This document shows positions 6,339 to 11,249 of a stretch of 64,000 nt of DNA, piece after piece. The notes under the pieces are model-generated. The model made no database searches, was not told the DNA's origin, and worked only from the letters and a program-made list of their open reading frames with translations. Position 1 is the stretch's first letter. Each line of letters begins with the position of its first letter. The stretch spans positions 186,001 to 250,000 of the forward strand of contig NZ_CP028942.1 in the NCBI RefSeq assembly GCF_013307225.1. The letters run 5' to 3'. A program made the position numbers and the translations under genes. Source of the stretch: Polynucleobacter tropicus. Its GTDB lineage: Bacteria; Pseudomonadota; Gammaproteobacteria; Burkholderiales; Burkholderiaceae.

Positions 6339-7187
6339 ATGGATATTTTAGGTCACCCAGCGTACGAGTTGCTTCCATCTGCACTCTATCTACTTCTTTT
6401 GCTTTTTTTGAGCTTTAGCCCAAAGGAGAAGGGTAATCCTTCAGAATCATCAACGCTGATCCAGGCTTTTATTCTTCTGGCCTTGCTGGCACATGGGTTG
6501 CAATTGCATGACTCGGTATTTACGCCTCAGGGTTTCGTTTTCGGGTTTGCTCAGGATTTGTCTCTAATTGCCTGGGTTGGTTTGGCTTTCTACTGGTTTC
6601 AATCTTGGTTTTTGCCCATTTCCAGCTTGCGTTGGTTAGCTGTTCTTTTTGCTTTCGCGTGCTCTCTTTTGCCAAGTGTATTTCCAGGAACATTAATTTC
6701 GCCGAGAGCAGTTTCTGACCCTTGGTTTAAGGGTCACTTCATTGTTGCCACGATTTCAGTAGGTTTGCTTAGTTTGGCTGCAATGCATGCGATGTTGATG
6801 AGTATTCAAGACCGAGCATTACACCGTCAATTAGCGATTGTTCCCAATAGTCGAGTCGCACATTGGCTTGAAGATTTGCCGCCATTGATGACGATGGAAA
6901 GCCTTTTATTCAACTTGCTCTATGTTGGATTTGCGCTATTAAGCTTGACCGTGTTTTCTGGTTTGCTGTTTTCGCAAACACTATTTGGCAGACCGCTGGT
7001 GTTTGACCATAAAACTATTTTCGCTTTGGTCTCTTGGTTTCTATTCGCTGGTTTATTGTTAGCGCGTCGGCGTGTAGGCTTGCGTGGTCGAGCTGCGATT
7101 CGTTGGGTGTTGAGTGCATACTTTGCTTTGCTTCTCGCTTACGTGGGTAGCCGTTTCGTTTTAGAAGTCATTTTGCAGAGAGCGTAA
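6339..7187 (+). CDS. CcsA/YpjD-like cytochrome c assembly membrane protein
   Basis: This is a polytopic inner-membrane protein of 282 residues, with about eight hydrophobic segments by eye. It resembles the YpjD/CcsA family placed next to ffh in many Betaproteobacteria and Gammaproteobacteria. A central segment with GHFIVATISVGLLSLAAMHA carries conserved histidines of the heme-handling family. True CcsA delivers heme for cytochrome c maturation, but the YpjD branch has no firmly settled role. The start ATG is close to the divergent ffh start. The next gene begins 3 bases after its stop, so the two are probably co-transcribed. Confidence 0.8.
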   Translation: MDILGHPAYELLPSALYLLLLLFLSFSPKEKGNPSESSTLIQAFILLALLAHGLQLHDSVFTPQGFVFGFAQDLSLIAWVGLAFYWFQSWFLPISSLRWLAVLFAFACSLLPSVFPGTLISPRAVSDPWFKGHFIVATISVGLLSLAAMHAMLMSIQDRALHRQLAIVPNSRVAHWLEDLPPLMTMESLLFNLLYVGFALLSLTVFSGLLFSQTLFGRPLVFDHKTIFALVSWFLFAGLLLARRRVGLRGRAAIRWVLSAYFALLLAYVGSRFVLEVILQRA

Positions 7188-7190
7188 TTC

Positions 7191-8009
7191 TTGTTCAAAT
7201 GGCTTTTATTACTTGCTGGCGCTTACCTTTTTTATCGTTGGTTAAAGGGTAAAAAGCATATTCAGGCCGGGGAAGGTAAATCACATAACCCCAATTCAAA
7301 TAAGGCTCCAAAGGCTACCGGCCCCGAGGAGATGGTGCAATGTCAGCATTGCAAAGTACATCTTCCAAAATCAGAGGCTAAGACTTTTGAAGAACGTTTT
7401 TATTGTTCTCAAGATCACTTAAATGAACTTGATCAAGAAGGTTGGATTGGTTCTGCAAAATGGCGCCTTTCTCCAAATCAAGATGTGCGCCCAGAAAATA
7501 TTTCACCAGATTTGGTGGTGATTCATCACATCAGTTTGCCTCCTGGTGGATTCAGATCAAAAAATTCTAGTCAATACATCATTGATTTTTTTCAAAATAA
7601 ATTGGATGCAAAAGAGCATCCGTATTTCGAAGAGATCACAGGACAAAAAGTATCTAGTCATTTTTTGATCACTCGCTCTGGTGAGTTGGTGCAGTTTGTT
7701 TCAACTCAAAATAAAGCATGGCATGCCGGCGTTTCTTCATTTATGGGTAGAGAAAAATGTAATGATTTTTCAATTGGTATTGAATTAGAGGGTGATGGAG
7801 ATACGCAATTTGAAGATGCGCAATACCAAGCCCTAAAAAAACTCATTCAGCTTTTGGCAGCTCGTTACCCAAACCTGCAATTCGCAGGGCATAGTGATAT
7901 TGCCCCCGAACGAAAGACTGATCCCGGAACTCATTTTGACTGGAAGAAGTTCCAAAAAGAGACAGGCATTTCCTTAAAAAATCTACCGTACGGATTGACT
8001 CCTCGTTAG
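7191..8009 (+). CDS. ampD: Fusion of PP0621-type membrane zinc-finger domain with AmpD amidase
   Basis: The C-terminal part, about residues 95-272, is AmpD, the amidase that cleaves L-Ala from 1,6-anhydro-MurNAc peptides in peptidoglycan recycling. The zinc ligands map to His112 or His113, His234 and Asp244 (HSDIAPERKTDPG), with Lys242 and Glu198 also in family positions. Residues 4-18 are a membrane helix followed by KGKK, predicting the rest inside the cell. Residues 51-76 carry a CxxC...YC...H zinc-ribbon-like pattern typical of PP0621 proteins. In relatives these are, as I recall, two genes. Here one continuous frame joins them. The start is TTG, preceded by GAGAG about 10 bases upstream. 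The fusion would tether AmpD to the inner membrane. Confidence 0.88.
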   Translation: MFKWLLLLAGAYLFYRWLKGKKHIQAGEGKSHNPNSNKAPKATGPEEMVQCQHCKVHLPKSEAKTFEERFYCSQDHLNELDQEGWIGSAKWRLSPNQDVRPENISPDLVVIHHISLPPGGFRSKNSSQYIIDFFQNKLDAKEHPYFEEITGQKVSSHFLITRSGELVQFVSTQNKAWHAGVSSFMGREKCNDFSIGIELEGDGDTQFEDAQYQALKKLIQLLAARYPNLQFAGHSDIAPERKTDPGTHFDWKKFQKETGISLKNLPYGLTPR

Positions 8010-8196: not shown

Positions 8197-8212
8197 GCAC
8201 TAGATATAGTGT
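8197..8212. promoter_or_regulatory. NrdR-box-like site B (strong)
   Basis: GCACTAGATATAGTGT matches the NrdR consensus at about 14 of 16 positions and is nearly palindromic. NrdR is the ATP/dATP-sensing zinc-finger repressor of ribonucleotide reductase genes. The nrdR gene is not in this window. Confidence 0.7.
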
Positions 8213-8259: not shown

Positions 8260-8275
8260 TAACTATATATAGACG
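8260..8275. promoter_or_regulatory. NrdR-box-like site C
   Basis: The core CTATATATAG is a perfect match to the central ten bases of the NrdR consensus. It lies 63 bases, or six helical turns, downstream of site B. It ends two bases before the nrdA Shine-Dalgarno AGGAG at 8277-8281, so binding here would lie within the transcribed leader if the 8170 promoter is used. Confidence 0.55.
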
Positions 8276-8285
8276 CAGGAGTAAC

Positions 8286-11249
8286 ATGACATACGCAAAT
8301 CCACAGACGGCAGGCCAAACACCTGGCGCAAATAACCCAGGAATTAACCCTGCAGGGGCAATCAATCAGACCCCTTCTGCCAGCTTTGTGGCCGGCGGAG
8401 TTGGTGGTGCTCAGGCAACCCAATTGTCCGATTACAAAATTATTCGCCGTAATGGTTCTGTTGTTGCATTCGAGCCATCCAAAATTGCGATTGCAGTAAC
8501 CAAGGCATTTTTGGCAGTTAATGGTGGCCAGGGCGCCGCATCTGCCCGCGTGCGTGAGCAGGTTGAGCAACTAACTCATTCCGTTGTGCGTGCTTTATTG
8601 CGTAGTCGTCCCAATGGCGGCACTTTCCATATCGAAGATATTCAAGACCAAGTTGAATTGGCTTTGATGCGCAGTGGTGAGCACAACGTTGCTCGTGCTT
8701 ATGTTTTGTACCGCGAAAAGCGTAACCAAGAGCGTGCTGCGCAACAAGAGGTTGCTCAGGAAGCTCAGACCGCAAACCAGACTGCAGAGTCTGGGATTAA
8801 GGTAACTGACAACGGCGTAGAAAAGTGGCTTGATATGGCCGCATTGCGCACAGTGATTGAAGCCGCTTGTGAAGGTTTGGGTAATCATATTGATGCAAGT
8901 CCGATCATCACTGAGACCATCAAGAATTTGTATGATGGTGTTCCAATGGCGCAGGTTTATGACTCCGCTATTTTGGCTTCCCGTACTTTGATTGAAAAAG
9001 ATCCAGCGTACAGCCAAGTAACAGCACGCATCTTGATGCACGTGATTCGCAAAGAGATCTTGGGTAAGGAAGTGTTGCAAGGTGATATGCAAGCTGAATA
9101 CAGCACTTACTTTGCCAAGTATATCCACGAGGGTATTTCAGCGGAATTACTGGACCCACGTATGAGTGAGTTTGATCTGCCGCGTCTAGCCGCGGCTTTG
9201 AATGCCAGCCGTGATTTGCAATTCAACTATCTCGGATTGCAAACCTTATATGACCGTTATTTCTTGCACATTGAAGATCGCCGCATTGAGATGCCACAAG
9301 CATTCTTCATGCGGGTAGCAATGGGCTTGGCTTTGAATGAGTTGGATCGTGAGCGTCGTGCCATTGAGTTCTATGAAATCCTCTCTACATTCGATTTCAT
9401 GTCCAGCACGCCAACCTTGTTTAACTCAGCAACAACACGCCCACAACTATCAAGCTGCTACTTGACGACTGTTGAAGATGATCTTGATGGCATCTATGAG
9501 GCATTGAAAGAAAATGCATTGCTATCTAAGTTTGCTGGTGGCTTGGGTAATGACTGGACCAATGTTCGCGCATTAGGTAGTCATATCAAAGGTACAAACG
9601 GTAAGTCACAAGGCGTTGTGCCATTCCTCAAAGTAGTAAATGACACAGCTGTTGCTGTAAACCAAGGTGGTAAGCGTAAGGGCGCGGTTTGCGCCTACTT
9701 GGAAACATGGCACTTGGATATTGAAGAGTTCTTGGAATTGCGTAAGAACACTGGTGATGATCGTCGCCGTACGCATGACATGAATACTTCTAACTGGATT
9801 CCCGACTTGTTTATGAAGCGTGTAATGGAAAACGGTGAGTGGACATTGTTCTCTCCATCCAATACGCCTGATTTGCATGATAAGTTTGGCAAGGCATTTG
9901 AAGAGGCTTATGTAGCTTATGAGCAAAAAGCTGATCGAGGTGAGTTAAAACCATTCCGCAGAATTCCAGCGCAACAGTTATGGCGCAAGATGCTTGGCAT
10001 GTTGTTCGAAACTGGCCATCCATGGATTACTTTCAAGGATCCTTGCAATATTCGTAGCCCACAGCAGCATATTGGCGTAGTTCACTCTTCTAACCTCTGT
10101 ACTGAGATCACTCTCAATACAAATGAGGACGAGATTGCAGTTTGTAACCTTGGTTCTGTGAACTTAACCGCGCATATGACTACTGATGCGAACGGTAAAT
10201 TGGTTCTTGATCACGAAAAGCTTCAAAAAACCGTACGTACTGCAATGCGTATGCTCGATAACGTAATCGATATCAACTACTACGCAGTAGCTAAGGCACG
10301 TAATTCCAACTTGAAGCATCGTCCAGTAGGTATGGGCATTATGGGCTTCCAAGATTGCTTGCACATGCAACGTATCCCTTACGCCAGTGAAGAGGCTGTG
10401 AAGTTTGCGGATTCTTCAATGGAAGCAATTTGCTACTACGCATACCAAGCTTCTAATGAATTGGCTGAAGAGCGTGGTGTGTACAGCACTTATAAAGGTT
10501 CATTGTGGGATCGCGGCATTCTTCCGCAAGATACCGTAGCAATGTTGGCCGCCGAGCGTGGTGGCTATGTTGAAGTGGACAGCTCTTCTACGATGGATTG
10601 GGCCGGTTTGCGCGCTCGCATCAAGCAACATGGTATGCGTAACTCCAATTGCGTAGCGATTGCGCCGACAGCAACGATTTCTAACATTATTGGTGTTTCG
10701 GCTTGTATCGAGCCAACATTCCAGAACTTGTTTGTTAAATCCAACCTTTCTGGTGAGTTCACAGTGGTAAATGAGTACTTGGTACGTGATTTGAAAGATC
10801 GTGGACTCTGGGATGAGGTCATGATTGCTGACTTGAAGTACTTTGATGGCACTTTGTCTAAGATCGACCGTATCCCTCAAGATCTCCGCGATTTGTATGC
10901 AACCGCCTTTGAAGTTGAGCCAAGCTGGTTGGTTGAGGCTGCTTCCCGTCGTCAAAAATGGATTGATCAGGCCCAGTCTTTGAATATCTACATGGCTGGC
11001 GCATCAGGCAAGAAATTGGATGACACCTACAAGTTAGCTTGGTTGCGTGGTCTGAAAACCACTTACTACCTCCGCACGATGGCGGCAACCCATGTTGAGA
11101 AATCTACTGTGGCTAGCGGTCAATTGAACTCTGTTTCCAGTGGCGCTGAAGGTGGTGGTGTAGCTGCAGCTCCTGTTGAAGCGGATGGCCCAGTTTGCAC
11201 AATGCGTCCAGGTGATGCTGGATTTGAAGAATGTGAAGCATGCCAATAA
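8286..11249 (+). CDS. nrdA: Ribonucleoside-diphosphate reductase class Ia, alpha subunit
   Basis: The catalytic large subunit reduces ribonucleotides to deoxyribonucleotides using the radical from NrdB. The first 45 residues are a Gly/Ala/Pro/Asn/Gln-rich low-complexity extension. One ATP-cone domain follows (about 49-145, KIIRRNGSVVAFEPSKI) and a second divergent cone-like region lies at about 175-260. The catalytic barrel contains LSSCYLTT, the NLCTEI cysteine-glutamate pair and the VCNLGSVNL motif. The C terminus ends CEACQ, the redox-active CxxC pair recharged by thioredoxin or glutaredoxin. At 987 residues it belongs to the long form with extra cones. Shine-Dalgarno AGGAG lies five bases before the ATG. 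NrdR sites precede it. Confidence 0.97.
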   Translation: MTYANPQTAGQTPGANNPGINPAGAINQTPSASFVAGGVGGAQATQLSDYKIIRRNGSVVAFEPSKIAIAVTKAFLAVNGGQGAASARVREQVEQLTHSVVRALLRSRPNGGTFHIEDIQDQVELALMRSGEHNVARAYVLYREKRNQERAAQQEVAQEAQTANQTAESGIKVTDNGVEKWLDMAALRTVIEAACEGLGNHIDASPIITETIKNLYDGVPMAQVYDSAILASRTLIEKDPAYSQVTARILMHVIRKEILGKEVLQGDMQAEYSTYFAKYIHEGISAELLDPRMSEFDLPRLAAALNASRDLQFNYLGLQTLYDRYFLHIEDRRIEMPQAFFMRVAMGLALNELDRERRAIEFYEILSTFDFMSSTPTLFNSATTRPQLSSCYLTTVEDDLDGIYEALKENALLSKFAGGLGNDWTNVRALGSHIKGTNGKSQGVVPFLKVVNDTAVAVNQGGKRKGAVCAYLETWHLDIEEFLELRKNTGDDRRRTHDMNTSNWIPDLFMKRVMENGEWTLFSPSNTPDLHDKFGKAFEEAYVAYEQKADRGELKPFRRIPAQQLWRKMLGMLFETGHPWITFKDPCNIRSPQQHIGVVHSSNLCTEITLNTNEDEIAVCNLGSVNLTAHMTTDANGKLVLDHEKLQKTVRTAMRMLDNVIDINYYAVAKARNSNLKHRPVGMGIMGFQDCLHMQRIPYASEEAVKFADSSMEAICYYAYQASNELAEERGVYSTYKGSLWDRGILPQDTVAMLAAERGGYVEVDSSSTMDWAGLRARIKQHGMRNSNCVAIAPTATISNIIGVSACIEPTFQNLFVKSNLSGEFTVVNEYLVRDLKDRGLWDEVMIADLKYFDGTLSKIDRIPQDLRDLYATAFEVEPSWLVEAASRRQKWIDQAQSLNIYMAGASGKKLDDTYKLAWLRGLKTTYYLRTMAATHVEKSTVASGQLNSVSSGAEGGGVAAAPVEADGPVCTMRPGDAGFEECEACQ

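Follow-up and report, generated by a model that had tools for sequence, protein, structure and literature searches.

AmpD is described as cytosolic in PMC2654508 and as located in the cytoplasm in PMC6403190, and the available excerpts of both papers place its activity after AmpG and beside NagZ. In the ampDE operon, as presented in the available part of PMC2654508, AmpD is linked with an inner-membrane protein, and in this respect the operon resembles the Polynucleobacter locus analysed here; AmpE is, however, a separate membrane protein, whereas the predicted Polynucleobacter tether belongs to the same chain as AmpD. With Citrobacter freundii AmpD (the NF008758 equivalog) the fused protein shares the whole amidase domain and all zinc and catalytic residues, while a helix and a zinc finger in the same chain are found only in the fused protein. 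The Amidase_2 fold is also common to AmiD and to AmpDh2/AmpDh3, which are envelope-located enzymes and give weaker matches (59-62 bits vs 181.8 for AmpD). As to the other component, the PP0621 family (NF041023) has the same helix followed by a CxxC...C...H domain, and in relatives its gene occupies the same position; the 19 relatives that were read encode it as a small protein of its own, whereas in Polynucleobacter it is joined to AmpD.

The literature searched contained nothing relevant on AmpD in Polynucleobacter, nor on a fused, membrane-anchored or transmembrane AmpD, and for PP0621 the search found a transposon-insertion table alone, in a source available in part. The PP0621-AmpD architecture is real, lineage-specific and undescribed in the literature searched. 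It is a modest finding: the enzyme is a known one, and its N-terminal arrangement, acquired by fusion with a neighbouring gene, is new.

One reading frame for PP0621 and AmpD

The window, a stretch of 64,000 nucleotides of Polynucleobacter tropicus DNA, carries on its forward strand the fused PP0621-AmpD gene at positions 7191..8009, encoding 272 amino acids from a TTG start to a TAG stop without internal stop. The initial annotation had placed PP0621 and AmpD in one continuous frame, and indeed both NCBIfam models score above their curated cut-offs along this uninterrupted frame. A 'gagag' sequence about 8 nt 5' of the TTG is compatible with the choice of start. A simple rule was used to pick starts in the genus, requiring a start codon at the hydrophobic stretch or shortly ahead of it; 144 of 146 loci yielded one, namely TTG in 102, ATG in 32 and GTG in 10. 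The upstream gene, at 6339..7187 on the same strand, encodes a Cytochrom_C_asm cytochrome c assembly membrane protein (PF01578, 94 bits); its stop ends 3 nt before the TTG, so that the two genes probably belong to the same operon.

The complete AmpD amidase domain spans codons 79-261 (7425..7973, forward strand; NF008758, 262.5 bits, cut-off 143), with a Pfam Amidase_2 match at residues 105-246. Specifically, H112, E198, H234, K242 and D244 align with H34, E116, H154, K162 and D164 of Citrobacter AmpD, whose numbering is derived from alignment to 1j3g/2y28, and are kept in 143-144 of the 144 genus proteins. From these equivalents we take H112, H234 and D244 to be the zinc ligands, and E198 and K242 to be catalytic-type residues. 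The ligands named beforehand are thus intact as regards these three, but His113, which had been listed with them, is no ligand; it aligns with Asn35 of Citrobacter AmpD, and 3 of 144 relatives have Tyr or Asn in its place. The fold is that of AmpD as well: Foldseek matches the model to 2y28_A with an E value of 6.2e-20, a TM-score on target of 0.93 and 49% identity over the domain, all seven of its top matches are AmpD, and the AlphaFold mean pLDDT is 88.8 for the full fused protein, with a 52-row alignment. The fused protein is most likely a working recycling amidase, an activity predicted here from sequence and fold.

The N-terminal part matches NF041023 (PP0621_fam) at residues 4-77 with 62.8 bits, against a cut-off of 45. 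In the genus this model scores over its cut-off in 135 of 151 genomes, and matches at an E value of 0.001 in 147 of 151. Within this part, codons 47-78 (7329..7424, forward strand) form a small domain resembling a zinc finger, C51-x2-C54 ... C72-x3-H76, which looks treble-clef-like in the model. C51, C54 and C72 are present in all unmasked rows of the 144 genus proteins, and H76 is kept in 142 of 144, the other two rows having one Asp and one masked residue; the CxxC...C...H motif pointed out in the initial annotation therefore holds across the genus, in 142-144 of 144 rows per column. AlphaFold renders the domain as small and strand-rich, with a short helix at its end. It matches Pfam LIM with a score below the cut-off, and when searched alone it gives weak matches of treble-clef type (TRASH, FCS and L24e-type ribosomal proteins; best Foldseek E value 0.24, best Z 4.7). 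These matches bear on the fold type and on nothing further. The PP0621 finger would be expected to bind zinc.

Conservation in the genus and origin of the fusion

The fusion was matched in 147 of the 151 Polynucleobacter genomes searched, and in 144 of these 147 it is one open frame. The four non-matching genomes are all incomplete (83-87%), and in two of the matching genomes (G021 and G130) the fusion is cut by contig ends. Adding two more fused genus genomes from a wider search to the 144 with an open frame, all 146 loci read are one open frame, in one case (L210) across masked N. The 144-row genus alignment leaves out two loci, L177 and L180, in which the start rule failed and whose AmpD residues are intact by eye. 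A frameshift or an assembly artefact at this locus is ruled out by the 146 loci in one frame, and conservation throughout the genus excludes chance and sequencing error. In other words, the joining is real and conserved genus-wide.

Two separate genes in a re-sequenced strain had been named beforehand as the observation that would speak against a fusion. A split is seen in 1 of the 147 genomes (G108), otherwise complete, where a run of A immediately behind the zinc-finger YCS motif has one base too many, which produces a single-base shift nested in the fused clade. This genome was considered as a possible remnant of the ancestral two-gene state and rejected as such, since its frames differ by one extra base and its AmpD lies deep inside the fused clade; that position indicates either a genuine break that arose later or a sequencing error.

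Selection acts on the parts of the fused protein to different extents. Across 14 close pairs picked by hand, of which 11-14 were usable for any one part, dN/dS is 0.067 in the transmembrane helix and 0.073 in the zinc finger, 0.112 in AmpD and 0.27 in the linker. Strong purifying selection acts on each of helix, finger and amidase; it keeps both modules and does not prove that the joining itself matters. This bears on a reading of the locus as a neutral event, in which overlapping neighbours merged in a small genome and kept their separate old jobs, with no effect on AmpD; we regard it as a serious contender, somewhat short of an even chance. The constraint on helix and finger argues against it inasmuch as it indicates that PP0621 matters, although the joining is not thereby proven, and so does the fact that no clean re-split occurs in the 147 matching genus genomes, barring the one single-base frameshift. 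The variability of the linker argues in its favour.

Further evidence on this reading comes from 29 genomes that belong to the same family (Burkholderiaceae) but to other genera, in 24 of which PP0621 was found, one of them (G178) with a weak partial match. It lies at most 240 nt upstream of ampD in 19 of the 29; 14 of these 19 near pairs have their PP0621 and AmpD domain matches no more than 59 nt apart, and among these 14 close pairs 12 show a 4-nt overlap between an ampD start codon and the PP0621 stop. Such an overlap makes joining easy, in keeping with a neutral merger. In addition, among the 29 family relatives searched PP0621 was not found in five (G158, G160, G167, G168 and G186), and the last four nonetheless keep AmpD over most of its length, which again suits a neutral merger and implies that AmpD does not need the PP0621 module. 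In three relatives (G152, G154 and G173) a distance of 3.6-3.8 kb, occupied by a histidine kinase and an NtrC-type regulator, separates the two genes, and this spacing weakens the functional link between PP0621 and AmpD. A further relative (G151) has no match to AmpD proper, and its PP0621 is on another contig than its weak amidase matches. As a separate observation, the genome G160 (locus L067), with AmpD present and PP0621 not detected, measures 1.2 Mb.

In a maximum-likelihood tree of 58 AmpD domains, whose deeper branches are poorly resolved and whose bootstrap was not settled, the fused AmpDs (25 fused representatives and the AmpD of G108) form one clade with support 99/95. Since many Burkholderiaceae already have PP0621 and ampD adjacent or overlapping, adjacency preceded fusion, and from such an arrangement a minor shift of reading frame in an ancestral genome would give the fused gene. 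The simplest account of these sequences would be that a single fusion took place in the Polynucleobacter ancestor. It was also considered whether the fusion resulted directly from the loss of pilS/pilR-like genes lying between PP0621 and ampD, an idea set aside as too simple. Several Burkholderiales have an NtrC regulator of PilR type, a kinase of PilS type or both directly 5' of ampD (L211, L212, L213; L237, L251), and in this order the kinase or regulator sometimes stands between PP0621 and ampD.

The fused architecture was sought in the genus and in its relatives, as the initial annotation had proposed, and in contrast with the 147 matching genomes of the genus no intact PP0621-AmpD fusion outside Polynucleobacter appears among the matches listed in the family, order and class searches, a result in which a weak fusion outside those listed could be missed. 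Matches were obtained in 190 of 200 genomes in the order search and in 161 of 184 in the class search; of the candidates outside the genus, G618 and G751 (both with stops inside) and G570 were left unread. Three candidates were rejected because one stop codon lies in between (TAA in G494, TGA in G505, TAG in G160), two (G554 and G500) because a gene for an NtrC/PilR-like regulator, identified by eye, is directly upstream of ampD, and four (G657, G635, G777 and G606) because their N-terminal extensions have no Cys motif. No phage record matched the fused protein over 80% of its length.

Predicted topology and integrity of the chain

The fused chain begins with a hydrophobic helix followed by basic residues, a predicted membrane anchor assigned to codons 2-22 (7194..7256, forward strand) from the AlphaFold helix at residues 2-25, hydropathy and charge. 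A variable and probably disordered linker follows at codons 23-46 (7257..7328, forward strand), with pLDDT below 50 at residues 25-38. The hydrophobic N-terminal segment with positive charge behind it, described at first in this one protein, is a general pattern: net charge is greater after the helix than before it in 141 of 144 fused proteins, with means of +3.7 and +0.9, respectively. According to the positive-inside rule, this charge distribution means that the amidase should face the cytoplasm, the helix being predicted to run N-out/C-in with the C-terminus inside. The helix of the P. tropicus protein is, however, short and of no more than moderate hydrophobicity, with a best 15-residue Kyte-Doolittle mean of 1.49 vs a genus median of 2.02, which counts against tethering; as the helix is short, membrane insertion is likely and not certain. 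Taken together, the amidase is most likely tethered to the inner membrane at its cytoplasmic face.

The opposite topology, with a periplasmic C-terminus and anhydro-muropeptides cut before import, appears highly improbable. A short N-terminal hydrophobic helix can serve as a signal anchor, which would allow it, but the charge bias in 141 of 144 proteins points the other way, a zinc site rich in Cys fits a reducing compartment such as the cytoplasm, the domain belongs to AmpD proper and not to the AmiD/AmpDh type, and AmpG is present in the genome.

A free cytosolic AmpD could be produced by proteolysis in the linker or by internal initiation at codon 48, an option that we judge quite improbable. 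The disorder predicted by AlphaFold at residues 25-38 of the linker would favour proteolysis, and the ATG at codon 48 of the P. tropicus gene, with GAGGAG immediately 5', would favour initiation. However, among the 144 genus proteins only 96 have Met at codon 48, while 45 have Ile and 3 have Val, and an EPMV-x-C-like stretch occurs in many stand-alone PP0621 proteins, so that Met48 fits a protein motif. Moreover, a start at codon 48 would retain the zinc finger, and since the P. tropicus gene has no in-frame start from codon 49 to codon 99, no intact free AmpD can be started past the finger.

Muropeptide recycling and candidate roles of the predicted attachment

The genome of P. tropicus contains AmpG (527.5 bits, cut-off 350), Mpl (689.9 bits, cut-off 388.7) and a GH3 enzyme of NagZ type (249.5 bits, cut-off 27); no second AmpD was matched in it, the fused gene being the sole one. 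We consider it probable that this gene encodes the sole AmpD of the cell, tethered through PP0621 at the cytoplasmic face of the inner membrane, performing the ordinary recycling step and having a single origin in the genus ancestor. In the mechanism proposed, adjacent PP0621 and ampD genes, overlapping by 4 nt in many relatives, would have been brought into one frame, and the PP0621 module, a short N-out/C-in helix with a treble-clef-like zinc finger, would hold AmpD at the inner membrane. AmpG would import anhydro-muropeptides, NagZ would then remove GlcNAc, and the fused AmpD, as a 1,6-anhydro-MurNAc-L-alanine amidase, would cut the peptide off anhydro-MurNAc, after which Mpl would re-use the freed peptide.

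Since AmpG is present in the genome, it is possible that the amidase is close to it, as the initial annotation had suggested. The tether would presumably bring some benefit; that it speeds or channels the processing of newly imported muropeptides is only a guess, and attachment may result in faster muropeptide capture, in regulation by the zinc finger or in no effect. As regards regulation, the finger might act as a zinc or redox sensor of the amidase, or as a dock for AmpG or another inner-membrane partner, an AmpE-like job of the kind proposed in Pseudomonas; we regard this as rather unlikely. The invariance of the zinc-site residues is in its favour, together with the statement, in the available part of PMC2654508, that AmpE, the inner-membrane protein of ampDE, modulates AmpD. 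The AmpE match in the P. tropicus genome is partial and below the cut-off (19.7 bits vs 21), which would be in keeping with this reading, but the AmpE model also gives partial matches elsewhere. These other matches may, we assume, be CobD-like, and AmpE itself may be either present or absent. A broader proposal seems to us unlikely, namely that throughout Burkholderiales PP0621 serves AmpD as an inner-membrane partner, so that the overlapping genes of relatives and their lasting fusion in Polynucleobacter would point to a membrane-tethered recycling station in which the finger docks the amidase at or near AmpG.

A functional tether would mean that AmpD, which in other bacteria is a key regulator of beta-lactamase induction, is membrane-associated in a widespread freshwater genus, and the fusion would give a lead on the role of the uncharacterised PP0621 family. 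This lead is limited, as PP0621 also occurs at a distance from ampD and some relatives have AmpD without it. If instead the fusion is neutral, the locus would illustrate cleanly how two overlapping genes merged and have remained merged throughout a genus.

Downstream of the fused gene, the gap before a ribonucleotide reductase-like gene at 8286 contains two short palindrome-like sites, CACTAGATATAGTG (8198-8211) and AACTATATATAGAC (8261-8274). The search pattern for NrdR boxes was built from these two sites, and its zero-mismatch matches are no independent test; from the consensus and the name of the ribonucleotide reductase-like gene, we take both sites to resemble NrdR boxes.
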